DNA from: an uncultured Flavobacteriales bacterium
GTDB lineage: Bacteria; Bacteroidota; Bacteroidia; Flavobacteriales_E; Vicingaceae
Direction of reading: 5' to 3'
NCBI GenBank assembly: GCA_905479995.1
Contig: CAJQON010000010.1
Location: 1 to 64,000 of the forward strand
Length of the DNA stretch: 64,000 bases
Position numbers and translations under genes: made by a program. Numbering within the stretch: position 1 is the stretch's first letter; every line of letters begins with the position of its first letter. Below, one piece after another: positions 25,450 to 44,881 of this stretch. The notes under the pieces are model-generated. The model searched no databases, was not told the DNA's origin, and saw only the letters and a program-made list of their open reading frames with translations.

Positions 25450-28400
25450 ATGAAAAACACCCTAACACTATTCATTGCCCTATTTTTAATTAGTTATACC
25501 CTTTTGGGACAAGCACCAGATTTAGTTAATTACCAGGCCGTTGCTCGAGACTTAACAGGTATTCCCCTAGAAAATGTTTCAGTTTCAGTTCAATATGATA
25601 TTAGATCGGGAAGTTCAGCAGGAACCATTATTTATAGTGAAAGTCATGCTACTACAACCAATCAGTTTGGATTGTTTACTGCTCAAATTGGAGGAGGATC
25701 GGTATTGTCGGGTAATTTTTCGACAATAAATTGGGGCACAAATTTACATTACCTACAAGTTACCATTAATGGAGATGTTATGCCGGCTGCACAATTACTC
25801 TCAGTTCCTTATGCTCTACATGCAAATACGGCTACAAGTGGAGTTCCTGGAGCAAATGGGCATAATAATTTAGCCGATTCAGTTGCTGAAGCACCTGGAG
25901 CAAACTGCGTAAATGGTGGATATCGAATTAACATGGGAGTTGATGACAATGATGATGGAGTGCTGCAAACAGGTGAAATAGACATTAGCTATTACATTTG
26001 TAATGGATTAAATGGAGCAGTAAACAACAATGATACAAGTGCTACCAATGAATTACAAACTTTATCGATATCTAACGACACCGTATTTTTAAGCAATGGT
26101 GGTTTTGCAGTTTTGCCTACTGCAATAGGAGATAATGATTGGCAAGTAACCGCTAATGATATTACAAGTATGCCTATAGGAAATGTTGGAATAGGAATTC
26201 CTACTCCAGGCCATAAATTATCGGTTGGTTCTTCAGATACAGTAATTGCTAGTTTTGTAGGTACAGATCCAAATGCGGCAATTTTATCTGTGTATGGTGT
26301 AAATTCGAATGCTGCTGTTGGAGCCATATTTTTAAACGGATCAGATTCTGGAGTGGTATTATTAGATCCCTCACAGAATGCTTTTTATTTAATGAATACA
26401 ACTGTAAATGGGAATTTGGGGATTGTTACAGACAGCACAATCGTACTTAATTCAACTGTTATTGCCAACGAATCTGACCTTACATATAATTTGGTTGACT
26501 CTATTTTTACTTATTCAGGAAGTGCAAATCCAGTAGTTCATGTTAATCAGGGAATGTTTATAACAGATTCACTGTATGTTATAGGCAACAATTTTAATCA
26601 ACCTAATTGGGTATTAGCTAATGATGGTATTGGTCAAGCAAAATGGACCGACCCAAGCACTTTGTTTAGTGGTGGGTTGTGGACTCAAGGAACGGGAGAT
26701 GTTTATAATACAACAGACAGTATAGGTATAGGTGTTGTTAATCCAATAGCGCCACTTCATGTTGCAGGTGGCGGATTAGGAAACCCAATTGCTTTGTTTG
26801 AGAAAGGTGGTTTTTTATCCGCAAATATTCATGTTAATAATACAGGTAGTAATGGGTCAGGAATTGTTTTTCAAAATGGAGGAACAAATACAGGGAGTAT
26901 TTCTTCTACAACATCAAATGTTTTAAACTTAAATGCACAAGTTGTTGAGGTTGGAATATCGCCTCAAACTGCTAAATTTAATGTTGCACATAGTTCATCT
27001 ACTTCTTCCCCTACAATGGAGTTGCATGAAAGCACCGCGGGGTTTTCTAGAATTAAACACACCAATTCTGTAGCAAATAAATATTGGATTACTGAAGCTG
27101 GAATTAATGCGAACGATGCAAACTCAGGTTACAGTATAGGGTATGAAAATGGTAGTGGAACAGTATTGCCTTTTATTGTTTATGGCGATAGCAAGGTAGG
27201 TGTAAATAATCTTGCTGCACCCTTGGCTTCTTTCCATGTGATGGATACTAATGCAACAGGAGGTGGAGTTGTTTCTGAAGGATTTGATCAGGCAGGATTG
27301 CTTGTTGCTGCTCGAAATAATTTTTCCTCCCCAAATAGGGGCGCAATAATTTCTGGTGATCAAATAGGTAAAGTAATATTTCCTGGATATGCTGGTGGTG
27401 CTTATGGCGATGGCCCACAGATTAGGGCAAATGCTACAGAAAACTACACCAGTGCAGCGAATGGTAGTGAATTGGTTTTTCAAACCATTCCTAATGGGAG
27501 TGTGAGTCATGTTGATGCTTTGAGGTTAACAAATGACGGGAAAGCTGAAATACCAGTCGGATTATTAATTCCAACCGGAGCAGCAAATAATTATGTTTTA
27601 ACGTCTGATGCAGTTGGTAATGCTTCCTGGAAAACAGCAGTTTCTACTTCTCTTTGGTCTACCAATGCAGGAAATGTTTACCCAACAACATTAGCAGATA
27701 GGGTTGGTATTGGGACAAACTCTCCATCAGGAAAGTTAGAGATATTCAATACTACAGAAGATTCTGCATTAGTTGTAAATAGTTCAGCTAGCAAAACGAG
27801 TCTTACTCAATTAATTGTTGGAACAAATTCAGGAACTGGATCTGGAGATAAGTATGGAGCTAGATTAACAACAAATGGTTTAGGAGGTTCTAATAATTAT
27901 GGAGGTTATTTTTCTGTTTCTGGTGGAGCTGTTTCAAATGCTGCATTGGGAGCATTTGCTTCGGGTAACTTAGGAAATAGAATGGGATTGTATGCCACTG
28001 TAGGTGGTGCTGGAACAGGGACTACTTACGGAATTTATGGCCAAAATTCATCCTCTACTTCGGGAGTGGTTTATGGTGGATATTTTCAAACATTGAGCAA
28101 TACTGGAAGTGTGATTTATGGTGTCCGATCTGACGTAAACTCCTCTTCATCAAGTAATCAATATGGGTTTTATACGAGCATTAACACCTCTTCTGGGGGA
28201 ACAAAATATGGCGTTTATGCTTATGTAGATCAAGGATCAACAAATTGGGCAGCATATTTTGCTAAAGGAGATGTTTACATAGCTGACAATTTAGTAATCC
28301 CTACTGGAGCTGGTGCAGGTAAAGTGTTAACATCAGATGCATCAGGAACTGCATCGTGGAAAACTGGTCACATAGCATTTGAGGCTCATCCAGCATCAGC

Positions 28401-28794
28401 TACTCAAGCTTTTACAAATGCCACCCAGCAATTGGACTTGTCTGTAGCGGGGTTAAATCATGGAGGCGGATATGCCACTGCTTCTAGCGAATTTATTGCT
28501 CCTGTAACTGGAGTATATTCATTTCAGTCGAGCGTTACACTAAAAGATTTGACGACCTCTCCAGATTTGGATTTTGTGATGGAAATGCTAAAAAATAATG
28601 TAGTAGTAAAGTCTTCTACAGAAATCTTAACTTCAACGAGTATAATAACAATAACCATAAACTCCACATTGGAGTTAACCGCTGGAGATATAGTTAAATT
28701 ACAAGCTTACCATAATATTGCTGGAGGATATTCTGCTGCTGTTACATCAATAGAAGGTACTTGGTTTAGTGGCCATTTAGTTTATGCAAATTAG
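25450..28794 (+). CDS. Fibre-like surface protein with C1q-like C-terminal domain
   Basis: 1,114 residues with a signal peptide ending near LLGQ. Residues about 23-190 form a conserved N-terminal module (APDLVNYQAVARDLTGIPLE, then VPYALHANTA). It is followed by an Asp-rich, possibly calcium-binding segment (VDDNDDGVLQTGEIDISYY). A long stalk of Gly/Asn/Ser/Thr-rich repeats includes several VGIGT-type segments (GNVGIGIPTPGHKL, RVGIGTNSPSGKLEI), as in phage-tail-like fibres. The last 135 residues (FEAHPASATQAF, then APVTGVYSFQSSV) resemble a C1q/TNF-like jelly-roll that would form a trimeric tip. No T9SS sorting domain is recognisable. It is a tandem paralogue of the next gene. Confidence 0.8.
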   Translation: MKNTLTLFIALFLISYTLLGQAPDLVNYQAVARDLTGIPLENVSVSVQYDIRSGSSAGTIIYSESHATTTNQFGLFTAQIGGGSVLSGNFSTINWGTNLHYLQVTINGDVMPAAQLLSVPYALHANTATSGVPGANGHNNLADSVAEAPGANCVNGGYRINMGVDDNDDGVLQTGEIDISYYICNGLNGAVNNNDTSATNELQTLSISNDTVFLSNGGFAVLPTAIGDNDWQVTANDITSMPIGNVGIGIPTPGHKLSVGSSDTVIASFVGTDPNAAILSVYGVNSNAAVGAIFLNGSDSGVVLLDPSQNAFYLMNTTVNGNLGIVTDSTIVLNSTVIANESDLTYNLVDSIFTYSGSANPVVHVNQGMFITDSLYVIGNNFNQPNWVLANDGIGQAKWTDPSTLFSGGLWTQGTGDVYNTTDSIGIGVVNPIAPLHVAGGGLGNPIALFEKGGFLSANIHVNNTGSNGSGIVFQNGGTNTGSISSTTSNVLNLNAQVVEVGISPQTAKFNVAHSSSTSSPTMELHESTAGFSRIKHTNSVANKYWITEAGINANDANSGYSIGYENGSGTVLPFIVYGDSKVGVNNLAAPLASFHVMDTNATGGGVVSEGFDQAGLLVAARNNFSSPNRGAIISGDQIGKVIFPGYAGGAYGDGPQIRANATENYTSAANGSELVFQTIPNGSVSHVDALRLTNDGKAEIPVGLLIPTGAANNYVLTSDAVGNASWKTAVSTSLWSTNAGNVYPTTLADRVGIGTNSPSGKLEIFNTTEDSALVVNSSASKTSLTQLIVGTNSGTGSGDKYGARLTTNGLGGSNNYGGYFSVSGGAVSNAALGAFASGNLGNRMGLYATVGGAGTGTTYGIYGQNSSSTSGVVYGGYFQTLSNTGSVIYGVRSDVNSSSSSNQYGFYTSINTSSGGTKYGVYAYVDQGSTNWAAYFAKGDVYIADNLVIPTGAGAGKVLTSDASGTASWKTGHIAFEAHPASATQAFTNATQQLDLSVAGLNHGGGYATASSEFIAPVTGVYSFQSSVTLKDLTTSPDLDFVMEMLKNNVVVKSSTEILTSTSIITITINSTLELTAGDIVKLQAYHNIAGGYSAAVTSIEGTWFSGHLVYAN

Positions 28795-28910: not shown

Positions 28911-31532
28911 ATGCAAAGTTTTATAAAATATTTAGTTGTTTTAATGGCCTTATTGTCAGTAAGTTATTCGGTTCATGGACAAGCACCAAATCTTGTTAAC
29001 TATCAGGCTGTAGCTCGAGATCTAACAGGAATCCCCTTAGAAAATACTTCAGTTGCAATACAATATGATATTAGATCGGGAAGTGCTGTAGGAACTATTG
29101 TTTATAGTGAAACACATACTACCACAACAAACCAGTTTGGTTTATTTAGTGCGCAAATTGGTGGAGGGTCGGTATTGTCTGGTAATTTTTCTACAATAAA
29201 CTGGGGAACCAATTTACATTATCTACAAGTGACAATAAATGGAGACGTTATGCCTTCAACACAATTGCTTTCTGTACCCTATGCGTTGCATGCAACTACC
29301 GCAGCAAGTGGAGTTCCTGGTGTAGATGGGCACTCAACTTTGGCTAACTCTACAGCAGATAGTACAACTTGCCCTAATAGAGGTTATTTAATTGATATGG
29401 GAGTTGATGACAATGATGATGGGACACTACAGGCTGGAGAAATTGACATAAGCTATTACATTTGTAATGGATTAGATGGGACAGCTAACACAAATGATAC
29501 AAGCGCAACTAATGAAATTCAAACGCTTTCTAGCTCAGGAGGTTTAATTTCACTTTCGAATGGAGGAGGATCGGTAATAGACTCTGTAAATGATGCAGAT
29601 GCTGATCCTAACAATGAACGAATTACAGCTTTTGCATTAAACACAGCCAGTGATAGTTTGATAATAACTGAATCAGCTGTAAGACATTCTTTTCCTTTAT
29701 CAAAATTAAGCGATGGAGATTGGACTAAAGGAGCTGTTGGAAATGATATTTATAATTTAACTGATAGCGTTGGAATAGGAACCAACAATCCAAAATCACC
29801 ATTACAGCTTGGAGATAAAATGCATTGGTTTCATTATATTGCAGCTCCTATGGATTATGGTGTAAGCACATATAATGTAATTGATGATGGAGCAACATTA
29901 AGAACTACTCAATCGGGAACTTCGGGATTATTATTTATGGGGGAAGATTCTGGAACCCCGCATTTCGGAGTAAATTTATTCCCTACACTACCCGCTGGAA
30001 CTGATATCCTTGCTCTATCTCCTAGACTAAAAATAAATTTAGGAGATAAAGGGCTGGCAATTAATGCTGATAATGCCGATGCAGGGTTAGAAATTGCCCC
30101 AATTGATTCAGCGGCTATTTTAATTGAAGTGCCAGATGATTTTAGTCAAGCTACGGTATTATTTTCGGGTCAAAATGGGAATCATTTGGGGATTAGACCT
30201 ACAACTACTTTCCCTGCAGGAAGTTTTAATTTAACTCTTCCAGATCGATTGCCAAGTAGCAATGGAAGTAGCTTGGTGTCGGATTTGTCGGGAAACCTAA
30301 ATTGGGCTATACCTACAGGAGGTCAATGGGTTACGAATGGACTAAATATTTACAATTCCAATACTGGTAATGTTGGAGTTGGTGTAATTTCTCCAACACA
30401 GAAATTTGAAGTAGAAGACAATTCTTCTGGGTTTGCAGCATTGATTAAGCAAGTCTCTGCTACAGGAAATGGATTAAGTGTTTATTCAAATACTTCTTCT
30501 AGTGCTCAAACAATTTTTCAGGCAACAGGCAATAGTGGAGGTGTTTACATTAAAGGAAACGGAGATGTAGGAATTGGAACATCTTCGCCATTAGTTGGAC
30601 TTAACATGGCAGGAAGTGAGTCACTAACAACGCTTAACTCGAATGGAGGGTCTCCAAAAACAACATTTAGAATACATAACAGTAGCCAAACCAACCACAA
30701 TTTTTCAAGTCTATCATTTACTACGCTTTTATCTAATAATGGAAACACAGAAATGGGAAAAATTGCAGTGGAGAATGTTAACCATACACTCGGTTCTCAA
30801 CAAGGAGATATGGTGTTTTTAACTAGAAACTCATCAAACCTTAACGAGGCGATGAGAATTGATGGCAATGGTCATGTGGGGATAGGGATAGCTACTCCAG
30901 ATTTGAAAATACACGTAGACATTTTAAATGCTATTGAAGTTCCTACTACTGGTAATGTTGCTCGTGGTTCTCAACGATTTTCTGCTGATGATTCTCCTTT
31001 GGTGATGGATATGGGTGTTGCAGATGACACCTATTTTGGCGGTTGGATTCAATCACATATGGGATCAAATATGAGTGTACAATATCCCTTGTTGCTTAAC
31101 CCAAACGGTGGAAATGTTGGAATTGGAACAACAGCACCTTCTGCAATGTTGTCGGTAAATGGAGCAGCCAACAAACCAGGAGGTGGAGCTTGGACAGTAT
31201 TTAGTGATGCAAGATCTAAAGAGAATGTTACGAATTACCAGAGTGGGTTAAAAGAATTATTAAAAATGCGTCCAGTAAGCTTTAACTATAAAAGTGAATT
31301 TGGTTGGGGAGATAAGACTTATGTAGGTTTAATTGCACAGGAAGTGGAAAAAATAGTACCAACTATGGTTCAGAAAAAGGAAGTAAATGGGATATCAGAT
31401 TTTAGAGAAGTTGATCCTAATGAGATTACTTACATGCTAATTAATGCAGTTAAAGAGCAACAACAATTGATTGATGTGTTAAAAGAGAATCAACTAAAAT
31501 TAGAAGAAGAAATAAAGGCGTTAAAGAAATAA
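28911..31532 (+). CDS. Fibre-like surface protein with S74 endosialidase-chaperone C-terminus
   Basis: 873 residues with a signal peptide ending near VHGQ. Its first 190 residues are nearly the same as those of the preceding gene (APNLVNYQAVARDLTGIPLE, then VDDNDDGTLQAGEIDISYY). A stalk with VGIGTxxP-type repeats follows. The last 115 residues match the Peptidase_S74 intramolecular chaperone of endosialidase tail spikes (TVFSDARSKENVTNYQSGL, YVGLIAQEVEKIVPTMV, ITYMLINAVKEQQQLI), ending in a coiled coil. In phage proteins this domain drives trimerisation and then cleaves itself off near the Ser-Asp motif. The protein is probably a trimeric surface fibre; the export route is not evident. Confidence 0.85.
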   Translation: MQSFIKYLVVLMALLSVSYSVHGQAPNLVNYQAVARDLTGIPLENTSVAIQYDIRSGSAVGTIVYSETHTTTTNQFGLFSAQIGGGSVLSGNFSTINWGTNLHYLQVTINGDVMPSTQLLSVPYALHATTAASGVPGVDGHSTLANSTADSTTCPNRGYLIDMGVDDNDDGTLQAGEIDISYYICNGLDGTANTNDTSATNEIQTLSSSGGLISLSNGGGSVIDSVNDADADPNNERITAFALNTASDSLIITESAVRHSFPLSKLSDGDWTKGAVGNDIYNLTDSVGIGTNNPKSPLQLGDKMHWFHYIAAPMDYGVSTYNVIDDGATLRTTQSGTSGLLFMGEDSGTPHFGVNLFPTLPAGTDILALSPRLKINLGDKGLAINADNADAGLEIAPIDSAAILIEVPDDFSQATVLFSGQNGNHLGIRPTTTFPAGSFNLTLPDRLPSSNGSSLVSDLSGNLNWAIPTGGQWVTNGLNIYNSNTGNVGVGVISPTQKFEVEDNSSGFAALIKQVSATGNGLSVYSNTSSSAQTIFQATGNSGGVYIKGNGDVGIGTSSPLVGLNMAGSESLTTLNSNGGSPKTTFRIHNSSQTNHNFSSLSFTTLLSNNGNTEMGKIAVENVNHTLGSQQGDMVFLTRNSSNLNEAMRIDGNGHVGIGIATPDLKIHVDILNAIEVPTTGNVARGSQRFSADDSPLVMDMGVADDTYFGGWIQSHMGSNMSVQYPLLLNPNGGNVGIGTTAPSAMLSVNGAANKPGGGAWTVFSDARSKENVTNYQSGLKELLKMRPVSFNYKSEFGWGDKTYVGLIAQEVEKIVPTMVQKKEVNGISDFREVDPNEITYMLINAVKEQQQLIDVLKENQLKLEEEIKALKK

Positions 31533-31547
31533 GCAAAACGTATTCTT

Positions 31548-32051
31548 ATGAAAAAAATGAACTACATATCTTTAGTCTTACTGTTTTTAATAAGCAGCTT
31601 TAGCATTGCTCAGGTTAGCATTTCGCGTCAAGTAATTGGTAGCACGGGAACTTTTTATATAGGTTCAAGTACTTCTATATCTTCAACTGTTGGAGAACCT
31701 GTAATTCTTACTTTCTTCTCACCTAATAGTATTATTACACAAGGATTTCAGCAACCCGAAACGCTTATAGAGGTTGATACAGCATTGACCTTTTACAAAG
31801 GAATTACGCCTAATGGTGATGGTAAAAATGATTCGTGGATTATTGATGACATTGAGTTTTTCCCAAATAATTCTGTAAAAATATTTAACCGATGGGGGGA
31901 AATACTATGGAAACGAGAAAGTTATGACAACAATGAAGTTGTTTGGGCAGGAGAACATGACAATGGAGAAAATTTGCTTACAGGAACTTATTTTTATGTG
32001 GTAATAGTAGAAGGAAAATCTTATAAAGGCTGGGTTGAATTAACAAGATAA
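31548..32051 (+). CDS. Small secreted protein with T9SS type B sorting domain
   Basis: 167 residues with a signal peptide (MKKMNYISLVLLFLISSFSIAQ). A short domain (30-85) shows the pattern ISSTVGEPVILTF, then TQGFQQPE, often seen in Bacteroidota proteins that end in this sorting signal. A CHU_C type B domain makes up the rest (FYKGITPNGDGKNDSW, IFNRWGEILW, GTYFYVVIVEG). The protein is almost only sorting domain. It lies 9 bases before a PorP/SprF gene, and SprF-like proteins are needed for export of particular type B cargo, so it is a probable client of that neighbour. Confidence 0.88.
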   Translation: MKKMNYISLVLLFLISSFSIAQVSISRQVIGSTGTFYIGSSTSISSTVGEPVILTFFSPNSIITQGFQQPETLIEVDTALTFYKGITPNGDGKNDSWIIDDIEFFPNNSVKIFNRWGEILWKRESYDNNEVVWAGEHDNGENLLTGTYFYVVIVEGKSYKGWVELTR

Positions 32052-32060
32052 GTAAGAAAA

Positions 32061-32978
32061 ATGAAAAAGTGTACCTTAATATTTTTGCTGTTTTTGTTGT
32101 CCTCGGTTGGATTTGGACAACAAGACCCGCAATACAGTTTATACATGTTTAATCCTCTTGGCGTTAATCCTGGTTATGCTGGAAGTAGAGAAGTGTTAAG
32201 TGCAATTCTCATTCATAGAAGCCAGTGGATTGGATTGGATGGTGCACCAGAAACTCAAGTATTATCTTTAAACAGCCCATTAAAAAATAAAAAAATGGGA
32301 GTTGGCCTCCAAATTGTAAATGACAAAATAGGGCCTAGAACTTCACAACACTTATCGGGATCTTATGCTTATCGTATAAAATTAGGCGGAGGTAAATTAG
32401 CCTTTGGATTAAGAGCTGGAATTATTAACCACAATTTCAATTGGGGAGATATAACCTATAAAGATCAAGAAGATGCTATTCCAACAACAGGTGCCGAAAA
32501 TGTTATGGTTCCTACTTTTGATTTTGGAATATATTACAACACAAAAACTTTTTATGCTGGGGTAGCAATAGATCATTTAAATGAAGCTAAGTACAACCTT
32601 ATTAACTCAGACACTACTTTTTCTGATGCTGCTCAAAATGCGAGTTTTACAGGAACTATTGGAAAGGCATTTGTTTTAAACGAAAATTTTGTATTAAAAA
32701 GTTCACTGTTGATGCGAGCAGCAAATACGGGCGGGAATATTGATTTAAATGGAAGTGTTTTAATAAAAAATAAAGTGTTATTTGGCGTAACCTTGCGTTC
32801 ATCTCAAGTAATAGTGTTAATGACAGAGTTTAACCTAACTAAAAATTTGCGTTTAGGCGTAGGATATGATTTTGATGGTTCTGATGTTGCTTCGTCAACA
32901 TCTGGATCATTTGAAGTATTTTTGGGTTACGATGTGGGGCTGTTTAAATCAAAAATTGTTTCACCGAGGTATTTTTAA
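32061..32978 (+). CDS. PorP/SprF-family type IX secretion membrane protein
   Basis: 305 residues with a signal peptide ending VGFGQ. The family signature directly follows: QQDPQYSLYMFNPLGVNPGYAGSRE, then RSQWIGLDGAPETQVLS. The remainder is an outer-membrane barrel. PorP/SprF proteins associate with the T9SS and assist secretion or anchoring of specific cargo. The gene is flanked by a type B cargo gene (9 bases upstream) and a PorE-like gene (1 base downstream), an arrangement typical of T9SS accessory operons. Confidence 0.93.
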   Translation: MKKCTLIFLLFLLSSVGFGQQDPQYSLYMFNPLGVNPGYAGSREVLSAILIHRSQWIGLDGAPETQVLSLNSPLKNKKMGVGLQIVNDKIGPRTSQHLSGSYAYRIKLGGGKLAFGLRAGIINHNFNWGDITYKDQEDAIPTTGAENVMVPTFDFGIYYNTKTFYAGVAIDHLNEAKYNLINSDTTFSDAAQNASFTGTIGKAFVLNENFVLKSSLLMRAANTGGNIDLNGSVLIKNKVLFGVTLRSSQVIVLMTEFNLTKNLRLGVGYDFDGSDVASSTSGSFEVFLGYDVGLFKSKIVSPRYF

Positions 32979-32979
32979 A

Positions 32980-35283
32980 ATGGTAAAGGATAATTTAATA
33001 AAGTTGATGGTAGTATCATTCCTGTTTATGGGAATAACTACAAATTCTTTGGCTCAACTTTCTAAAGCTAATAAATACTATGCAAAAGGATTTTATGCCA
33101 ATGCCATTACCTATTACCAAAAAAAGCTCAAAAAAGACCCAAATAATGCAATCGCCAATCAAAAAATTGCCGACTCTTACCGCAAGTTAAAAGATTATCC
33201 TAACGCAGAACTTTTTTATGAAAAAGCGTTAGCTATGAATCCGGAAGAAAACGCGAACTATTTATATTATGGTCAGGCCTTAAAAAACAACAATAAAATT
33301 AACGAGGCTCGAATGCAATTTGATCAATACGTTGCTAAAAATCCTGAAAGCTTTATTGGTCGTTTAATGGTACAATCTTGTGGAGATATTATTGAGTGGA
33401 GTTCTGAAGAAAAGGCATTTAAAGTTGCTATTGTAGAAAACATAAACTCTAAAAATGCGGATTTCTGTCCAATGGAATATGAAGATGGACTTATCTTTGT
33501 TTCGGAAAGAGGGTTGGATTTGGTTAACGAAAGCAACTTTGATATGTCTAACAAGCCTTATTTATCTATTTTTTTAGCGCAAAAGAGTAAACAGTATAAC
33601 AAGCCAAAGAAGTTTTCTAATAAACTAAACTCTTTTTATCATGATGGACCTGGAACTATTTCTGCTGACAAAAAGACAATTTATTTTACAAGAGTAGATA
33701 AAAAAGAACATGGAAAAACCTATGTGAATCGGCCTAAAATATACCAGGCCACATTAGATGGTAAAAAGTGGAAAAACATTACCCCTTTTAAATATAACAA
33801 CAATCAGTATTCAGTAGCTCACCCATGGATATCTGAAGATGGTACAAAATTGTTTTTTGCTTCAGATAAAGAAGGTGGTTATGGAGGTATGGATATTTAT
33901 GTTTGCCACAGAGAAGGGGAAGAGTGGGGAGAGCCTATTAACCTTGGAGAAGGGGTGAACACTTCAGAAACCGAAGCTTTTCCATACTTTAGGAGTGGAG
34001 TACTTTATTTTGCTTCAGAAGGGCACTCGGGATATGGAGGCTTAGATATTTTTTCGGTAAATGAACGCGATAAATGGACTAGCCCTAAAAACTTAAAAGC
34101 ACCGTTAAACTCTGCTAAAGATGATTTTGGAATATTTTACAAAGACGATGAGAATGGCTATTTTTCATCTAATAGAGATGGGGGTATTGGAAGTGATGAC
34201 ATTTACAGTTTTAATTGGCATCCTCTTATTCCACAAACAACTATAAGCGGATTGTTAGAATACGAAAAGCTTGCTGCTGCTGGTACCACCATAAATCTTT
34301 TAGATGAAAACGACAATATTCTTCGAACAATAACAACAGATTCAACGGGGAAGTTTGTTTTTAATAAATTGAATTTGGATCAAAACTACTTATTGGCAAT
34401 AGATGCAGAAGACGATAGCTTTTTAGACAATGCAAAACTTTTTTTAACCAACTCTAACGGAGAAAAAGTAATGTTAGCCAATAGAATTGCTAAGGGAAAA
34501 TATAAGTTTGAAGCGCTTCCATATGAATATTATGATGAGTTAGAATTATTAAAAGAAACAGATGAAAGTTTATTTACCGTTAAAGTGAACGGTCAAATTT
34601 ATGATAAGTTACCAGGAGATTATTCTGGAGAAATGGAGATTTGGCTAGTTAATGATAAAGGAAATATAATTAGGAAGGCTAAAGCAGACAAAAATGGTAA
34701 ATTTATATTTGACAAGTTATCACCAGATGAACAGTATTTATTTATGCTGTCTGAAGATGATGCTAATTTAAATATGATTATACTTGATGAAAACGGAAAC
34801 ACCCTTGAGTCGGCTACTCGTTTAAATGACAAGAAGTACAAATATAAAAGGTTGGATGCCGATGAGAATATGATTACCCTAATTAATGAAGTGGATGAAG
34901 TAATTAAGATTGCTGAAAATGAAAACTTTATTATTTCTAAAGTCCTTTATGCTTACCGTTCATCTGCAATTGGAGAGGAGGCAGCCAAAGAGTTAGACAA
35001 ATTGGTTTTAATTCTTAAAAAGAATAAAGATATTGGAATGGAATTAAGTTCCCATACCGATTCTAAAGGAAGTGATTCATATAACCTACAACTGTCTCAA
35101 AAAAGAGCCAACAAAGCAGTAGAATATGTTTTGGGACAAGGAGTAGATAAAAGAAAAATAATAGCAAAAGGATATGGAGAAACACGCCCTGTAGCTCCAA
35201 ATACTTTACCAAATGGGAAAGATAACCCAGAAGGGAGAGCTAAGAATAGAAGAACAGAATTTAAAGTTATAAAGTTAAACTAG
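32980..35283 (+). CDS. PorE-like OmpA-family protein (TPR, propeller, regulatory-like domains, OmpA_C)
   Basis: 767 residues from the ATG at 32980; upstream in-frame codons belong to the PorP gene in another frame and are not used. A signal peptide ends at SLAQ. TPR units cover about 25-120. A PD40/WD40-type propeller covers about 165-425 (KKTIYFTRVDKKEH, TKLFFASDKEGGYGGMDIYV, FPYFRSGVLYFAS). Carboxypeptidase-regulatory-like segments cover about 425-630. A C-terminal OmpA domain (about 650-767) carries the peptidoglycan-binding Asp and Arg of SSHTDSKGSDSYNLQLSQKR. This order matches T9SS PorE, which ties the secretion complex to peptidoglycan. Paralogues of this architecture are common, so orthology with PorE itself is not certain. 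Confidence 0.88.
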   Translation: MVKDNLIKLMVVSFLFMGITTNSLAQLSKANKYYAKGFYANAITYYQKKLKKDPNNAIANQKIADSYRKLKDYPNAELFYEKALAMNPEENANYLYYGQALKNNNKINEARMQFDQYVAKNPESFIGRLMVQSCGDIIEWSSEEKAFKVAIVENINSKNADFCPMEYEDGLIFVSERGLDLVNESNFDMSNKPYLSIFLAQKSKQYNKPKKFSNKLNSFYHDGPGTISADKKTIYFTRVDKKEHGKTYVNRPKIYQATLDGKKWKNITPFKYNNNQYSVAHPWISEDGTKLFFASDKEGGYGGMDIYVCHREGEEWGEPINLGEGVNTSETEAFPYFRSGVLYFASEGHSGYGGLDIFSVNERDKWTSPKNLKAPLNSAKDDFGIFYKDDENGYFSSNRDGGIGSDDIYSFNWHPLIPQTTISGLLEYEKLAAAGTTINLLDENDNILRTITTDSTGKFVFNKLNLDQNYLLAIDAEDDSFLDNAKLFLTNSNGEKVMLANRIAKGKYKFEALPYEYYDELELLKETDESLFTVKVNGQIYDKLPGDYSGEMEIWLVNDKGNIIRKAKADKNGKFIFDKLSPDEQYLFMLSEDDANLNMIILDENGNTLESATRLNDKKYKYKRLDADENMITLINEVDEVIKIAENENFIISKVLYAYRSSAIGEEAAKELDKLVLILKKNKDIGMELSSHTDSKGSDSYNLQLSQKRANKAVEYVLGQGVDKRKIIAKGYGETRPVAPNTLPNGKDNPEGRAKNRRTEFKVIKLN

Positions 35284-35287
35284 AAAA

Positions 35288-38200
35288 GTGAAGAAGGCCT
35301 TATTTGTGCTATCCGTAGCACTACTATCTAATTTTGTTGTTGCCCAACAAAGTAATATAAAGTTCAGACATTTAACCATTAAAGATGGGTTGTCTCAAAG
35401 TGGAGTTAGCTCTATTGTACAAGACTCTAAAGGGCTTATTTGGTTTGGAACACAAGATGGATTAAATGCGTTTAACGGGTTTAATTTCGAAATTTTTTCA
35501 CACGATTTATCCGATCCAAAATCTATTTCAAACAACCACATAAGAGCTATACACCAAGATAAAAATGGATTAATTTGGCTAGCTACAGAAAATGGATTAA
35601 ATGTTTTTAATAGAGCATCGTACAATTTTGAATCCATTATAAAATCAAAAAAGAAAGAAAACATATGGGCTTTAGCAGAAAGTGAAAAGTACATATGGGT
35701 AGGAACCGAAAGAAAGTTGCTTAAGGTAAACAAAAGTACATTTAAGGTTGATCGAATTGAACTTCAGGTAAGCACTTCTCTGCATAAACTTAAAGCCAGA
35801 AAGCTCCTTTTTATTAAGGATACTCCAAGCCTATTAATAGTTACGGAAGGAAATGGAATAATAAAGTATGACATTAAGAATAATAATACCGAACAGTTTT
35901 ATCAAGACAATAGTTTATTAAAAAGTGATATTGTTTGGGATGCTATTCAAGACAGTGAAGGTAAAATTTGGATTGCGACCAATAAAGGGATTAATTTTTA
36001 TGATCCAAAAAATGGGAAAGTCTCTTCAAAATTTGAGCTAGACCATAAAATTGGGAATCAAATTGTGAAATCGATTTATGAAGATAAATCGGGTATTATG
36101 TGGGTGGGTACAGACGAAAGTGGACTTTACCGAATAAATTCTTTTACCAATATTAATCACTATTTATACAGTGCTAATGTTTCTACAAGCATAAGTAGTA
36201 ACAGAATAAATGTAATTTATGAAGATAACACTGGAATAATATGGGTGGGAACACAATCTGGAGTAGATAAGTTTGATCGACAAAAACAATTTTTTAAGCA
36301 TTATCAGCATTGGCCAAATCAAACAAATACCATTAATAGTAATATGGTTTGGTCCATTTTTATGGAAAATGATGAATCTTCTACCTTATGGGTAGGAACT
36401 GATTTAGGTATAAATGTATTTGACAAACATACTGGTAAGGTCAGCCATATTACACCAAACTTCTCTCATGAACTAGAAAACAGGAACAAGAGTATTTATG
36501 CTATTTATAAAAATAGTAAAGGACAAATTTTGGTTGGTACAGATGGAGGTGCTTTTTATATTGATGGCGAAAAGCTAAAGCCATTAGGGGATCGTCAAAA
36601 TAAAGAAAATAGAAATAGAACCTATACCATATTAGAAGATGAAAAACAACGATTGTGGTTAGGAACCAAAGAAGGGGTAGTAATTGTTTCTCCAGATTGT
36701 CAAAGCTATCAGCAAATTAAAAGCTCAGACTCATTAGGCGGTTTAACAAGCGATGTTGTACGGGTAATAAAGCAAACTAAAAATGGGCAAATTTGGCTAG
36801 GAACAGATCTGGGTGGTCTTTGTAAAGTAATAGAAGAATCGGATGGAAATATTAAATTTAAGAGTTTTGTAAAAGATCAAGATAACCCAAACTCATTAAG
36901 CAATAATACTGTTTTATCAATTTATGAAGACAAGAAGGGAATACTTTGGATTGGAACTTTTGGAGGAGGATTAAATCGTTTTGATCCCAAAACGGAAAAC
37001 TTTACAGTTTTTACCGAAAAAGAAGGGTTATCTAACAATGTAATTTATGGTGTTTCAGGAGATAAAAATGGAAATCTATGGATGAGTACAAATAAGGGGA
37101 TTTCTCAATTTTTTATTGATAGAAATAAGTTTAGAATCTTTGAAGAAAGTGATGGACTACAAAGTAATGAGTTTAATACTGGGGCTTATTTTAAAAGTAA
37201 AACAGGACAACTTTTTTTTGGAGGAATAAATGGGTTTAATACATTTTTCCCTGAAGATATTCATATTAATAAATCAAAACCTAAGCCTTTAATTACCAAT
37301 TTCTATTTGTTTAATAAACCTGTAAAAATTGGGGAAAATGAGATCTTAAAGAAGCACATTTCCGAATTAGATGAGATTGTATTAAAACATAAACAGAATG
37401 TAATATCTTTTGAATTTGCATCCCTTCATTATTCATATCCTTTAAAAAACTTACACAAATACAAGCTAGAAAACTTTAATGAAGACTGGGTTGAAATTGG
37501 GAATAGTAGAATAGCAAACTATACTAACCTAGATCCAGGAGAATATATTTTTAAAGTTAAAGTAGCAAATAGTGATGGAATCTGGAGTGAAGAAACATCA
37601 GAAATTAGAGTAATTGTGGAACCACCATTTTGGAGGAGTTTGTTTTTTATTTTAATGGTATATGTATTAATTCCATTGTTTTTAATTTATGGTATTATAA
37701 AATATAGAATAAGTCAAGTAAAACGACAAAAGCAGTTACTAGAAGTACAAGTTAGAGAAAGAACACATGAGGTAATAAGGCAAAAAGAATTGTTGGAAGC
37801 AGAAAAGGAAAAAACAGAAAAACTGTTGTTAAATATTTTGCCTGCTGAAACGGCAGAAGAATTAAAAGCCAAAGGTAGGGCAACAGCTAGGCAATATAGA
37901 TTAACCTCAATAATGTTTACCGACTTTAAAAGCTTTACTCAAATAGCAGAATCTACAAAACCGGAAACCTTGGTTAAGGAGTTGGATAATTACTTTAAAA
38001 AGTTTGATGAAATTATTGAAAGGTATGACGTTGAAAAGATTAAAACGATTGGAGATGCTTATATGTGTGCAGGAGGAATTCCTATAAGAAATAATAGTAA
38101 TCCAATTGACATTGTTCTTGCTGGTTTGGAGATTCAGCGGTTTATGAAAGTTTACAATCAAGGAAAAATTGATCAAGGAGAAAAAGGGTGGGGCCTTAGA

Positions 38201-39112
38201 ATAGGAATTCATACAGGATCGGTAATTGCAGGAGTTGTAGGAATAAAACGTTTTGCTTATGATATTTGGGGCGACAGTGTAAATGTTGCAAGTAGAATTG
38301 AAGCTGCGAGTGATGTGGATAGAGTAAATATATCTGGAGCTACATATGAATTGGTGAAAGAATTTTTTACCTGTGAATATAGAGGGGAAATAAAAGCCAA
38401 AAATAAAGGGAAAATAGACATGTACTTTGTGCATTCTATTAAGCCAGAACTTTCTGTAAATGGTGAAGGAGCTTTACCGAATGACTTGTTTCAAAAGTAT
38501 GTTGATTTGCATATTTACAGTAGTATAAATTATAGAAAAGCAGAGAGATATATTGTTGACAGACTAAAAAAGGAACTACCAGATAATTTATATTATCATG
38601 ATTTAAGACATACCACAGATGTTTGTGCGGCTGTTGAGCGATTGGCTTTAATGGAGGGGATTGAAGGGGATGACATCTTTTTATTGAAAACAGCAGCGTT
38701 ATATCATGATGCAGGTTTTGTGCATCAATATGCTAATAACGAAGATTTAGGAGCTGCTCTGGCTCGGGAGGTTTTACCAAGATTTGGCTACTCTGAAAAT
38801 CAATTAAATATAATATGCAGGTTAATTCAGGCAACCAAAGTACCGCAAAAACCGCAAGATCATTTGGAGCAAATTATTTGTGATTCGGACTTAGATTATT
38901 TAGGAGGAGATGAGTTTCATTTTATTGCAAATAAGTTGAAACGAGAACTTATGGAAAGAGACATTATTGAAACAGATAAACAATGGGACGAACTTCAGGT
39001 TAAGTTTTTAGAGGCTCATACTTATTTTACCAAAACTGCAATAGAGTTAAGGCAAAGCAATAAGCGCGATCGAATAAATGAGATTAATGAAAGGTTAAAA
39101 ACATATAAGTAA
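35288..39112 (+). CDS. Transmembrane receptor fusing Reg_prop propellers, Y_Y_Y, adenylate cyclase and a PDE-like HD domain
   Basis: 1,274 residues starting from GTG at 35288 with a signal peptide (MKKALFVLSVALLSNFVVAQ). About 13 Reg_prop blades (pattern GxIWxGTxxGL) fill residues 25-680, enough for two seven-bladed propellers. A Y_Y_Y domain follows (to about 780), then one membrane helix (about 784-806) and a coiled coil. The class III cyclase domain has both metal Asp residues (Asp879, Asp923) and the adenine-selecting Lys919 and Asp992. Transition-state Asn999 and Arg1003 are also present, so adenylate cyclase is favoured. The C-terminal HD domain has YHDLRHTTDV (His1104, His1108), His1140-Asp1141 and Asp1199/Asp1201, resembling class I cyclic-nucleotide phosphodiesterases. 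The protein would sense a periplasmic ligand and set cAMP level. It is the last gene of the PorP/PorE operon. Confidence 0.9.
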   Translation: MKKALFVLSVALLSNFVVAQQSNIKFRHLTIKDGLSQSGVSSIVQDSKGLIWFGTQDGLNAFNGFNFEIFSHDLSDPKSISNNHIRAIHQDKNGLIWLATENGLNVFNRASYNFESIIKSKKKENIWALAESEKYIWVGTERKLLKVNKSTFKVDRIELQVSTSLHKLKARKLLFIKDTPSLLIVTEGNGIIKYDIKNNNTEQFYQDNSLLKSDIVWDAIQDSEGKIWIATNKGINFYDPKNGKVSSKFELDHKIGNQIVKSIYEDKSGIMWVGTDESGLYRINSFTNINHYLYSANVSTSISSNRINVIYEDNTGIIWVGTQSGVDKFDRQKQFFKHYQHWPNQTNTINSNMVWSIFMENDESSTLWVGTDLGINVFDKHTGKVSHITPNFSHELENRNKSIYAIYKNSKGQILVGTDGGAFYIDGEKLKPLGDRQNKENRNRTYTILEDEKQRLWLGTKEGVVIVSPDCQSYQQIKSSDSLGGLTSDVVRVIKQTKNGQIWLGTDLGGLCKVIEESDGNIKFKSFVKDQDNPNSLSNNTVLSIYEDKKGILWIGTFGGGLNRFDPKTENFTVFTEKEGLSNNVIYGVSGDKNGNLWMSTNKGISQFFIDRNKFRIFEESDGLQSNEFNTGAYFKSKTGQLFFGGINGFNTFFPEDIHINKSKPKPLITNFYLFNKPVKIGENEILKKHISELDEIVLKHKQNVISFEFASLHYSYPLKNLHKYKLENFNEDWVEIGNSRIANYTNLDPGEYIFKVKVANSDGIWSEETSEIRVIVEPPFWRSLFFILMVYVLIPLFLIYGIIKYRISQVKRQKQLLEVQVRERTHEVIRQKELLEAEKEKTEKLLLNILPAETAEELKAKGRATARQYRLTSIMFTDFKSFTQIAESTKPETLVKELDNYFKKFDEIIERYDVEKIKTIGDAYMCAGGIPIRNNSNPIDIVLAGLEIQRFMKVYNQGKIDQGEKGWGLRIGIHTGSVIAGVVGIKRFAYDIWGDSVNVASRIEAASDVDRVNISGATYELVKEFFTCEYRGEIKAKNKGKIDMYFVHSIKPELSVNGEGALPNDLFQKYVDLHIYSSINYRKAERYIVDRLKKELPDNLYYHDLRHTTDVCAAVERLALMEGIEGDDIFLLKTAALYHDAGFVHQYANNEDLGAALAREVLPRFGYSENQLNIICRLIQATKVPQKPQDHLEQIICDSDLDYLGGDEFHFIANKLKRELMERDIIETDKQWDELQVKFLEAHTYFTKTAIELRQSNKRDRINEINERLKTYK

Positions 39113-42211: not shown

Positions 42212-43042
42212 ATGAAGAGTTTTATTGGGGCTATAATTCTTACCTTAGGTAGTTGCTGCAGTTTTTTTGCGCAATGCCCTAGTTCTATCGAGATTATCAG
42301 ATCTGTTGAGAATCCCGTTTGTAAAAATTCACCAGTAACATTTTCTGTTTTACCTAAAGCTGGTGCAATTACTGATTATATTTGGGTTGTAAATGGAGAC
42401 ACAATTAGTAATGCTGCTACGTTAACCACAAGTATAAATTTTGCTCACGTAGAAGTTTATGCCGTTTCAGATACTTGTAATTTGGACACTCTTTTTAGTG
42501 ATAGTTTTATTCTTAATACCGAATTTACTGTTGATTATACTGTAATTGTTGAAGAGTGTAATCAACCCGTTGCAGATGTTCAAATTAACAACATTAGTGG
42601 AGGTTTAGCACCTTATACCTATAGCTTATTTGTTGAAGATGTGGATAATGGTCAGGCTGACTTGTATCCGGATTTATCAGTTTCAAGTTATCCTTTGGTC
42701 GTTCAAGATGCCAATAATTGTATAGATACTTTTTGGATAAATATTGAAGTAACCAATTGTCCATTGCCTGATCCTAAGGAGGTTTTTACTCCCAATGAAG
42801 ATGGGTTTAATGATGGCTGGATTATTAGTTACATTCATTTATACCCAGATAATGAAGTGTTTATTTACGATAGATGGGGACAGAGAGTTTACCACAAAAA
42901 AGGCTATGAGAATAATGATCCATGGAAAGCCCAGTACGTAGGAGCTAATATGCCAGTTTCTACTTATTACTATATTCTAAAAGTTAATTTTGAGAAGCAA
43001 GATCAAATAGTTTACAATGGTGCAATTTCTATTTTTAGATAA
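42212..43042 (+). CDS. Secreted protein with T9SS type B sorting domain
   Basis: 276 residues with a signal peptide ending CSFFAQ. Residues 22-105 resemble an Ig/PKD-like domain (PVCKNSPVTFSVLPKAGAI). Residues 110-185 carry one SprB-like module (ISGGLAPYTYSLF, then YPLVVQDANNCIDTFW). The C-terminus is a CHU_C type B sorting domain (EVFTPNEDGFNDGW, IYDRWGQRVYHK, PVSTYYYILKV). It overlaps the following PorP/SprF gene by one base, which makes it a likely cargo of that protein, like the pair at 31548-32978. Confidence 0.88.
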   Translation: MKSFIGAIILTLGSCCSFFAQCPSSIEIIRSVENPVCKNSPVTFSVLPKAGAITDYIWVVNGDTISNAATLTTSINFAHVEVYAVSDTCNLDTLFSDSFILNTEFTVDYTVIVEECNQPVADVQINNISGGLAPYTYSLFVEDVDNGQADLYPDLSVSSYPLVVQDANNCIDTFWINIEVTNCPLPDPKEVFTPNEDGFNDGWIISYIHLYPDNEVFIYDRWGQRVYHKKGYENNDPWKAQYVGANMPVSTYYYILKVNFEKQDQIVYNGAISIFR

Positions 43043-43977
43043 TGAAAAAGGCTCTATTCATATTATTTACAATAGTTTCGTTGAGCGTATTTTGTCAGCA
43101 ATCTGTCCAATATTCTCAATATTCATTTAATAATTTTGGGTACAATCCGGCTTTTGCAGGAACAACTAAATGCATTAATTTTAAACTTGGAACTAGGATG
43201 CAGTGGATGGGTTTTGAAGGAGCTCCCCGATCATCTTTTGTAAGCGTTCACTCTAGATTAGGGCAAAAAAAGTTTAGTGGAAGAGGAGGGAAACATGCTG
43301 TTGGTTTATATGTAGAGCAAGACGAGGTACATCTTACAACTAGAAATGCATTTAAACTTGGTTATGCTTACCATACCAAAGTATCTATGAAATATACTAT
43401 GGGCTTAGGTGTTTTTGCTGGATTACAACAGTATTCTACCGATGACATTTTTGGTGGTGAAAACAATCCAGACCCAGTTTTGGCAAATGCAGCAGGATCG
43501 GTAATTAGGTATCCAGATATTATGCCTGGAATATTGTTGTACAGTAAAAAAATGTACTGGAGCTTTTCCATAAACCAACTCTATTTTAAGAACATCAATT
43601 TAGGACAAGAAGAAAAGCAGGTTAACCAGTATTATTTTGGTGCTGGACATAAATCGGTAAATGGGCATTGGACCATTTTTAAATCATTTTTATTGAAACA
43701 AAACATTATGGGGCCACCAGCTATAGATTTAAATATGGCATGGGTTTATTATGGAGCTATTACAATGGGAGTAGGTTATCGGGTAGGAGAATCGATTATC
43801 CCTCAAGTAAAATTACAGTTGGGTAAATTTGGTATTGCCTATGCGTTTGATTACCCACTTAATCAGTTAAGAGGAAATTTTGGGCATGAAATTATGATCA
43901 GTTTCAGTCGTTGTAAAGGAGGGGGAATTGGTGATGGAAGTCCAGGGAAAGACTATGAATGTCCTGCTTATAATTAA
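43042..43977 (+). CDS. PorP/SprF-family type IX secretion membrane protein (second copy)
   Basis: 311 residues with a signal peptide ending VFCQ. The signature is QQSVQYSQYSFNNFGYNPAFAGTTK, then RMQWMGFEGAPRSSFVSVH; the rest is barrel-like. The last 20 residues are Gly-rich with two Cys. As for other family members, a role in secretion or surface attachment of the adjacent type B protein is likely. It starts within the stop codon of that gene and is convergent with the thioredoxin-like gene, overlapping its 3' end by four bases. Confidence 0.92.
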   Translation: MKKALFILFTIVSLSVFCQQSVQYSQYSFNNFGYNPAFAGTTKCINFKLGTRMQWMGFEGAPRSSFVSVHSRLGQKKFSGRGGKHAVGLYVEQDEVHLTTRNAFKLGYAYHTKVSMKYTMGLGVFAGLQQYSTDDIFGGENNPDPVLANAAGSVIRYPDIMPGILLYSKKMYWSFSINQLYFKNINLGQEEKQVNQYYFGAGHKSVNGHWTIFKSFLLKQNIMGPPAIDLNMAWVYYGAITMGVGYRVGESIIPQVKLQLGKFGIAYAFDYPLNQLRGNFGHEIMISFSRCKGGGIGDGSPGKDYECPAYN

Positions 43978-44201
43978 GCAATCATAAAATGGCCTAAAAT
44001 ATCGCTATTGCCATAACTAATTAGTTTGTTTTTCTTAACCAAAGCTGGTAGTATTCTTATTGGGAAAGGGAGCTCATACCTATCAACATCTACATTAACA
44101 GTTTTAATATGAATACCGTCTTTTTCAAGATTTTTTAAAACCTCAACACATGCAACGCATTTGTCGCTTATAAAAAGCTGATATTCAGTAATCTTGTTCA
44201 T
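43974..44201 (-). CDS. Thioredoxin/glutaredoxin-like mini-protein
   Basis: 75 residues. An N-terminal strand (EYQLFISD) is followed by a CVAC redox pair at residues 15-18 and a helix (VEVLKNLEKDG). A second strand (IKTVNVDVD) and a cis-Pro-like segment (IRILPALV) follow, as in a glutaredoxin-like fold. It could be a disulfide reductase or redox sensor. Its start overlaps the Crp/Fnr stop by one base (TAATG), so the two are translationally coupled; a redox link to that regulator is conceivable but unproven. Confidence 0.75.
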   Translation of the reverse strand: MNKITEYQLFISDKCVACVEVLKNLEKDGIHIKTVNVDVDRYELPFPIRILPALVKKNKLISYGNSDILGHFMIA

Positions 44202-44881
44202 TAATTTAATTGAGTTATATCGCGTATTAAAAATTGATTTCTTTCCAAATAAATTAAATCCTTTTCTTTTAGTTCGTTCAAAACAGTTGTAACTGTTTGT
44301 CGTGATGTTGCAGTTAAATTAGCAATGTCTAAATGGGTTAAATTGTGTTTAACCAAAATTTCAGTTCCAATTTTTTTGCCTTTTTCTGTTCCTAGGTCAA
44401 TTATAAAATCAATAATTCTAGTCCTTGCATCTTTAAATACCAAAGCTTCTAACCGTCTTTCTACCTTTTGAAGTCGAAAACCAATTAATTTAGTCACTTT
44501 TAAACCTAGCATAGAGTTTGCTCCCATCATAGCTTCCATATCGTTAATGCTCATTGCGCACAATTTAACGTTATTGTCTAATGCAATAGCAAAATCTTTA
44601 CGTTTACCTTCATCAACAAGACTTAGCTCACCGAAAATTTCGCCAGGGCCTAAAATTGTTTTTATAATCTCTTTACCATTGTCGGAATAAGAACCAATTT
44701 TTACCCTTCCCTTTTTTAAAAAATAAATAGATGAAGAAGGATCTTCTGGAAAGTAGATGTATTCATTCTTTTCTACTTTACTGTCTTTAATTTTTTTGGC
44801 CATTTTCATCTTTTCCATCAAAGACAAAGCTTTTAAAATGTTAAAGTTTTCTAGGTGCCAAAGTTTGGTTTCTGTAGACAT
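44201..44881 (-). CDS. Crp/Fnr-family transcription regulator
   Basis: 226 residues. An N-terminal cyclic-nucleotide-binding-type barrel (about 25-140) includes YIYFPEDPSSSIYFLKKGRVKI and the cassette GPGEIFGELSLVDEGKRKDFA. A long dimer helix follows, then a winged HTH (about 165-220, LTHLDIANLTATSRQTVTTVLNEL). The Arg-Ser pair that binds the cAMP phosphate in E. coli CRP is replaced by Lys-Asp here, so cAMP may not be the ligand. There is no Fnr-type Cys cluster. A perfect inverted repeat upstream could be its own operator. Confidence 0.9.
   Translation of the reverse strand: MSTETKLWHLENFNILKALSLMEKMKMAKKIKDSKVEKNEYIYFPEDPSSSIYFLKKGRVKIGSYSDNGKEIIKTILGPGEIFGELSLVDEGKRKDFAIALDNNVKLCAMSINDMEAMMGANSMLGLKVTKLIGFRLQKVERRLEALVFKDARTRIIDFIIDLGTEKGKKIGTEILVKHNLTHLDIANLTATSRQTVTTVLNELKEKDLIYLERNQFLIRDITQLN

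Follow-up and report, generated by a model that had tools for sequence, protein, structure and literature searches.

In the window, by which we mean the whole stretch of 64,000 nt analysed here (contig CAJQON010000010.1 of an uncultured Flavobacteriales bacterium, Vicingaceae), one gene encodes a membrane receptor in which a class III nucleotide cyclase domain is followed, in the same chain, by an HD domain resembling class I cyclic-nucleotide phosphodiesterases (PDEs) in its predicted fold. Judging from sequence and structural models, we read this protein as a cyclic AMP (cAMP) receptor-enzyme provided with its own eraser, with a probability of about 0.62. The predicted role of the HD domain is most likely that of a compact cAMP PDE, because its modelled fold matches class I PDEs, it carries a QxxF motif, and unfused members of its family lie near cyclases far more often than expected by chance.

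The protein would act as a dimeric inner-membrane receptor bearing two opposed enzymes. Its periplasmic propeller/Y_Y_Y part may sense a surface or carbohydrate-like cue, which would be relayed through the membrane segment and a signalling helix to alter the pairing of the two cyclase domains, where cAMP would be made from ATP. The C-terminal HD domain, a putative metal-dependent cyclic-nucleotide PDE related to, but shorter than, the catalytic domain of class I PDEs, would convert this cAMP to AMP where it is made. The output would then be the balance between synthesis and breakdown, working either as a ligand-set switch or as a constant local sink that would keep the signal low, brief and near the receptor.

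Domain organisation

The gene and its parts are as follows.

35288..39112 (+): whole gene, sensor, transmembrane segment, class III cyclase and HD phosphodiesterase-like domain, 1274 aa (open reading frame [ORF] and Pfam)
35288..35347 (+): signal peptide, residues ~1-20, ending in VVAQ (by eye from the sequence)
35348..37630 (+): periplasmic sensor, Reg_prop propeller repeats and Y_Y_Y, residues ~21-781 (Pfam)
37634..37702 (+): single transmembrane segment, residues ~783-805 (hydrophobic stretch, translation by eye)
37703..37876 (+): signalling helix with NILP motif, from membrane to cyclase, residues ~806-863 (long helix in the AlphaFold2 [AF2] model; weak HNOBA similarity)
37889..38434 (+): class III cyclase domain, residues 868-1049, with D879, K919, D923, D992, N999 and R1003 (Pfam, structure match, alignment)
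38465..39109 (+): HD domain, residues 1060-1274, with Y1103, H1104, H1108, H1140, D1141, E1152, D1199, D1201, Q1237 and F1240 (Pfam, alignment, structure comparison)

All Pfam matches on the receptor ORF exceeded the curated cut-offs: Reg_prop in 9 stretches (3.1e-53), Y_Y_Y at residues 715-777 (2.5e-17), Guanylate_cyc at residues 868-1049 (4.6e-49) and HD (PF01966) at residues 1107-1201 (2.9e-5; 24.8 bits, cut-off 22), the full extent of the HD domain (~1060-1274) being judged from relatives. An earlier interpretation of this DNA, made from its letters alone (the sequence-only reading), had pointed to D879, K919, D923 and D992 in the cyclase and to a YHDLRHTTDV motif, a His-Asp pair and an Asp in the HD domain, and all of these were found at the positions it gave, the HD motifs at residues 1103 (first residue of YHDLRHTTDV), 1140-1141 and 1199.

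Conservation of the fusion

Each of the 46 genomes of the host's order matched the HD query, mostly in frames of 1158-1322 or 510-534 aa; a few of these genomes had shorter or partial frames alone, and one (G011) only a distant match with 30% identity. HD paralogues of ~200 and ~400 aa were also present in the order. For comparisons between loci of named genomes we used the best 80 of 559 confirmed relatives, which span Vicingaceae, Crocinitomicaceae (Brumimicrobium, Fluviicola, Crocinitomix, Lishizhenia) and their kin, as named in their records. Cyclase and HD lay within one ORF in 79 of these 80 loci, the contig of the remaining one (L091) starting inside the HD domain, and the region running from the first residue of the cyclase match to the last of the HD match measured 422-429 aa in the relatives, save for three cut by contig ends (L133, L134, L163). 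With 79 of 80 loci fused, chance or artefact was ruled out as the source of the pairing, and the earlier proposal that one receptor chain carries both domains, also borne out by the Pfam assignments, held well beyond the window.

A length rule divided the 79 fused loci into 54 full-length ORFs, 16 of less than 1000 aa and 9 running off a contig end. Some of the short ORFs came from a broken frame (e.g. L084, L105 and L120); other short relatives, such as L038 and L040, consist of a transmembrane part, cyclase and HD without the propeller, and some relatives dispense with the periplasmic sensor.

The cyclase domain

The cyclase domain scored 166.9 bits against PF00211 (cut-off 21.9) and contains the complete catalytic set, namely D879, D923, K919, D992, N999 and R1003. 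Class III cyclases use two metal-binding Asp residues, a Lys/Asp pair that selects adenine and an Asn and an Arg that act on the transition state. In the alignment, K919, D923, D992 and N999 were kept in 79/79 relatives and D879 in 77/77, the other two having gaps at that position. The nearest solved structures included vertebrate membrane adenylyl cyclases, among them mammalian AC8/AC9/AC5, together with mycobacterial Rv1625c, and structure comparison gave Z 26.8 to the soluble domain of a bacterial adenylyl cyclase (5o5l) and Z 22.1 to Rv1625c (7yzk). The Pfam match and the alignment thus agree with the sequence-only reading, which saw a class III cyclase whose catalytic and adenine-selecting residues are all in place, and the domain should be of class III (IIIa-type), a predicted adenylate cyclase. 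One other class III cyclase match, a weak one (41.9 bits), was found in the same genome on contig C8 (L002 / L037), where two proteins with cyclic nucleoside monophosphate (cNMP)-binding domains lie within ~10 kb.

The HD domain

The HD domain has the H...HD...D metal motif of the HD superfamily in addition to its PF01966 match, and Y1103, H1104, H1108, H1140, D1141, D1199 and D1201 were kept in 79/79 relatives. Since all metal ligands are invariant, a degenerate HD was rejected; an HD-GYP domain acting on cyclic di-GMP was likewise discarded, no such match being found in Pfam or NCBIfam. Neither the cyclase nor the HD half is decaying as judged from the alignment, an invariance that shows only selection on both sites.

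An AF2 model of the HD domain, built from a 57-row alignment, reached a pLDDT of 94.5 and a pTM of 0.88. Among the VIA-align matches listed for this model, all 50 were class I PDE catalytic domains (Z 17.7-16.6), the best covering 197 of the 215 HD residues with a root-mean-square deviation (rmsd) of 2.9 and most other listed rows having an rmsd of ~3. It should be considered that VIA-align compares candidates selected by Foldseek, and that in helical proteins caution applies to Z values below ~13, those of the HD model lying above. The HD domain thus has the class I PDE fold in an AF2 model rather than in a crystal, and the likeness to class I PDEs, drawn at first from motifs, extends to the fold (Z 17.7).

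A Giardia PDE paper lists eight conserved residues of the class I metal pocket (PMC5617230); by motif position H1104, H1108, H1140, D1141 and D1199 fit this list, and E1152 probably does. The 257 phylum genomes scanned yielded no true class I PDE that could have served in a residue-level profile alignment. Near the C-terminus of the HD domain, the sequence QVKF (Q1237-x-x-F1240) agrees in spacing with the invariant Gln and the stacking Phe of class I PDEs, which are Gln453/Phe456 in PDE9 (PMC3069055). It was likened to the PDE QxxF by motif and helix position, and F1240 was kept in 80/80 named-locus rows and Gln in 77/80, the other 3 having Asn. Because the same study finds the Gln critical for binding yet unlikely to set the choice between cAMP and cyclic GMP (cGMP) (PMC3069055), we did not use Q1237 to choose between purines. 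Going by its modelled fold and partial motif, we class the HD domain as a probable compact class I-like PDE rather than as a member of class I. When cyclase and HD were modelled together as a monomer, AF2 gave a packed unit (pTM 0.86 over 455 residues), an arrangement that allows the coupling of the two halves.

The HD family across Bacteroidota

The HD family was surveyed in a sample of 257 Bacteroidota genomes, 88 of which held HD (109 matches), 141 a class III cyclase and 98 a PycTM. Fifty-five of the 109 HD matches were fused to PycTM, 5 lay within 3 kb of a PycTM, 11 were in other long frames and 38 stood alone. Forty stretches were taken around HDs without PycTM fusion, a subset of the unfused HDs among the 109, and 12 of these 40 contained a class III cyclase (one of the 12 being itself a fusion), against an expectation of 0.26, given the numbers of cyclases and the sizes of the genomes, and a maximum of 4 in 200,000 simulations. 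The arrangements included a TPR-cyclase followed by HD (L185), two cyclases plus HD (L165), a response-regulator-cyclase plus HD-YitT-DUF2179 (L174) and a cyclase-HD fusion of 1866 aa (L172).

The HD-YitT-DUF2179 proteins, in which a same-family HD is joined to a YitT membrane part and DUF2179, were found at L174 4153-5610 (-), directly downstream of the response-regulator cyclase, and at L168 11647-13143 (+). Long proteins with a C-terminal HD were also seen, one of 880 aa with TPR (Pfam) that faces a class III cyclase gene (L167 5102-7741, -) and one of 863 aa (L169 3375-5963, +). At L203 2229-5600 (+), a divergent cyclase with TPR is followed by a standalone PycTM and then a standalone HD, possibly a three-gene Pycsar-like locus.

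The residue at position 1237 was surveyed in 137 HD rows besides that of the window. Besides the 80 named-locus rows, Gln was found in 10/13 rows near cyclases (from 12 loci, including the fused L172 and also L173, whose cyclase is 5.5 kb away), in 7/29 rows standing alone and in 0/15 fused to PycTM. The three near-cyclase rows without Gln were those of L186, L194 and L203, and L186 and L203 adjoin cyclases without the Lys. In an HD tree of 68 rows, in which every eighth named-locus row was sampled and the three Asn rows were not among them, 28/28 Gln rows fell in a single clade (100/98), the other 40 having Asn, Thr, Ser, Glu or Cys. By this tree, the Gln state is the mark of one cyclase-linked HD lineage of single origin, and repeated co-evolution of Gln with cyclases was not supported. 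A class III cyclase was present in 16/16 sampled genomes with a Gln-type HD, against 47/72 of the other HD genomes. Fisher values computed for these associations take no account of kinship and do not count as independent evidence.

The PycTM branch of the family includes a member in the host's own genome, a 401-aa protein of the Pycsar effector kind (L036 4580-5785, -). It stands on contig C19 and is the only PycTM match of this genome, none being found in the receptor gene or in the scanned operon proteins. These HD-PycTM proteins (PF01966 + PF18967; 31% identity for the one in the host's genome) belong to the same HD family as the receptor and are likewise tied to a protein family of cyclic mononucleotides; they differ in that the partner is an effector and not a cyclase, and in having Asn, Glu, Ser, Thr or Cys in place of Gln in 15/15. 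No PF00211 match was present in 21/54 genomes with HD-PycTM, which speaks against a simple role of the PycTM-linked HD in erasing the product of class III cyclases.

We tentatively propose that Bacteroidota possess a family of compact class I-like PDEs with HD sequence, in which the Gln type is tied to adenylate cyclases by fusion or neighbourhood and the non-Gln type (Asn, Thr, Ser, Glu, Cys) is often fused to PycTM; if the base is chosen at position 1237, the presumed site of base contact, cAMP would be the nucleotide erased by the Gln type and a different cyclic nucleotide that erased by the non-Gln type. Were this doubtful but possible scheme true, second-messenger receptors and Pycsar-type effectors alike would have an eraser built into their own chain, and our receptor would exemplify a general design in which a writer or reader is combined with an eraser in one protein.

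Alternative explanations

Several observations weigh against a cAMP receptor-enzyme with its own PDE. R1003 was found in 74/79 relatives and is replaced in 5/79. PF00233 (PDEase_I) gave no match over its cut-off in any of the 46 order genomes or the 257 phylum genomes, the best rows below it including HD-family members and also other frames of ~410-435 aa. The His residues of HDxxH and ExxH, strictly conserved according to the Giardia PDE paper (PMC5617230), are F1144 and G1155 here, so the full set of eight is absent. One Gln clade means that the association of Gln with cyclases is a single event. Foldseek returned no match to the HD model at E <=0.001, and its best E value (1.1e-3) went to Bacillus YpgQ with ADP, tied with PDE5.

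That first row would suit an HD domain that cleaves another nucleotide, be it a nucleoside or deoxynucleoside triphosphate as for YpgQ, presumably a nucleoside triphosphate pyrophosphatase, or an alarmone or other nucleotide, and whose link to the cyclase has some other cause. Sequence searches of the PDB found nothing up to E 10 with the HD alone and only weak matches with the 57-row profile, among them TbrPDEB1 (1.4, on the first motif); the best of these, the HD hydrolase 2pq7 (E 0.024), points the same way as the YpgQ row, as does a weak similarity of the HD domain to GlnD. We consider this explanation unlikely in view of the fusion of the HD to cyclases or its position beside them, its QxxF motif and the VIA-align matches listed, which are class I PDEs throughout, YpgQ possibly ranking further down.

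That the HD domain is a pseudo-PDE regulator, sensing the product cAMP by binding it and adjusting the cyclase with no meaningful hydrolysis, seems quite improbable to us. The packed AF2 arrangement and the fixed spacing would suit such allosteric coupling, but the His of the YH pair, the general acid in class I PDEs, is invariant in 79/79 together with every metal ligand, all of which would be needless for a pure binder. Very unlikely, in our opinion, is the use of cGMP or of a cyclic pyrimidine in place of cAMP. The HD relatives fused to PycTM and weak matches of PycC models to the receptor cyclase would favour it, whereas the adenine-selecting K919 and D992 are present in 79/79 relatives and the PycTM-linked HDs form a separate, non-Gln group.

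Comparison with known systems

The closest parallel to the proposed cAMP receptor-enzyme is CAPE (COMBINED AC with PDE) of Marchantia and other streptophytes, in which one chain unites a class I PDE with a class III adenylyl cyclase; both activities have been measured in vitro on separate recombinant domains (PMC5159850; PMC8115329). CAPE is a plant protein with an N-terminal, full class I PDE and a C-terminal cyclase, whereas the receptor is bacterial, has a periplasmic sensor and places the cyclase before a short HD that stays below the PF00233 cut-off, and so lacks the CAPE order. Class I PDEs themselves (e.g. PDE10A, PDE7A, PDE2A, RhoPDE) share with the HD domain the fold over 197/215 residues and the H-x3-H, HD and D elements, and possibly QxxF; most solved catalytic domains among the matches listed have 277-330 residues against 215 here, and the HD domain differs further in the two missing His and the PF00233 result given above. 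Rv1625c and the mammalian class IIIa adenylyl cyclases are alike in the cyclase domain, with no HD and another membrane part. The periplasmic sensor is of the kind found in the Reg_prop/Y_Y_Y hybrid two-component systems of Bacteroidota, whose usual output is a histidine kinase, here replaced by cyclase plus HD. The receptor is not a Pycsar pair (PycC + PycTM/PycTIR), its cyclase bearing the adenine pair.

Cyclase-PDE fusions are known in plants (CAPE), and the bacterial, receptor-coupled, HD-type version appears new in the open literature that we searched. Our search of that literature, which left subscription papers mostly outside, found no study of a bacterial cyclase-HD receptor or of HD-PycTM, and little on cAMP signalling in Bacteroidota. 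Both HD domains and 2TM effectors reportedly figure in work by Burroughs and colleagues (2015) on nucleotide-based conflict systems. If our reading is correct, Bacteroidota would possess a cAMP eraser in this conserved single-chain cyclase-PDE receptor, which would illustrate how a messenger can be kept at its receptor in a bacterium and would be a compact bacterial counterpart of the animal PDEs that serve as drug targets. The presence of this HD family on PycTM hints that one class of defence-type effectors has an off-switch built in.

Genome context

The two models tried found no class II PDE in the 46 order genomes and no CpdA in the host's own genome. The receptor gene follows three genes of type IX secretion system (T9SS) kind, and a candidate cAMP target lies outside the operon.

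31548..32051 (+): small protein bearing a type B sorting domain of the T9SS (neighbour scan)
32061..32978 (+): PorP/SprF family T9SS protein (neighbour scan)
32866..35283 (+): PorE-like protein (TPR, PD40, OmpA), directly upstream of the receptor gene (neighbour scan)
44201..44881 (-): Crp/Fnr-type regulator with cNMP-binding domain, candidate cAMP receptor (neighbour and genome scan)

The true start of the PorE-like gene probably lies after its overlap with the previous gene, and the receptor ORF begins with a GTG 4 bases past the PorE-like stop. Proteins of the type B sorting, PorP/SprF and PorE kinds belong to one complex in Porphyromonas gingivalis (PMC9143113). Among the 69 named loci with at least 400 bp of readable upstream sequence, 9 had a PorE-like ORF directly upstream; L084, which also has one, was left out of this count for its broken receptor frame. 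In Brumimicrobium aurantiacum the receptor gene is preceded by a ferritin-like gene (ferritin by eye). The sequence-only reading had tied cAMP to surface secretion through this operon: the T9SS link holds in the window and among close relatives but is confined to a minority of the named loci (9/69), which makes the tie at most a lineage habit.

The genome encodes four proteins with cNMP-binding domains, the Crp/Fnr-type regulator 5 kb downstream of the receptor gene being the one in the window. A second pair of type B sorting-domain and PorP/SprF genes occupies 42212-43977 (+), with no PorE-like gene directly after it. Two large neighbouring paralogues with similar N-termini lie at 25450-28794 and 28911-31532 (+), the second ending in what we take to be a tail-spike type S74 chaperone domain.

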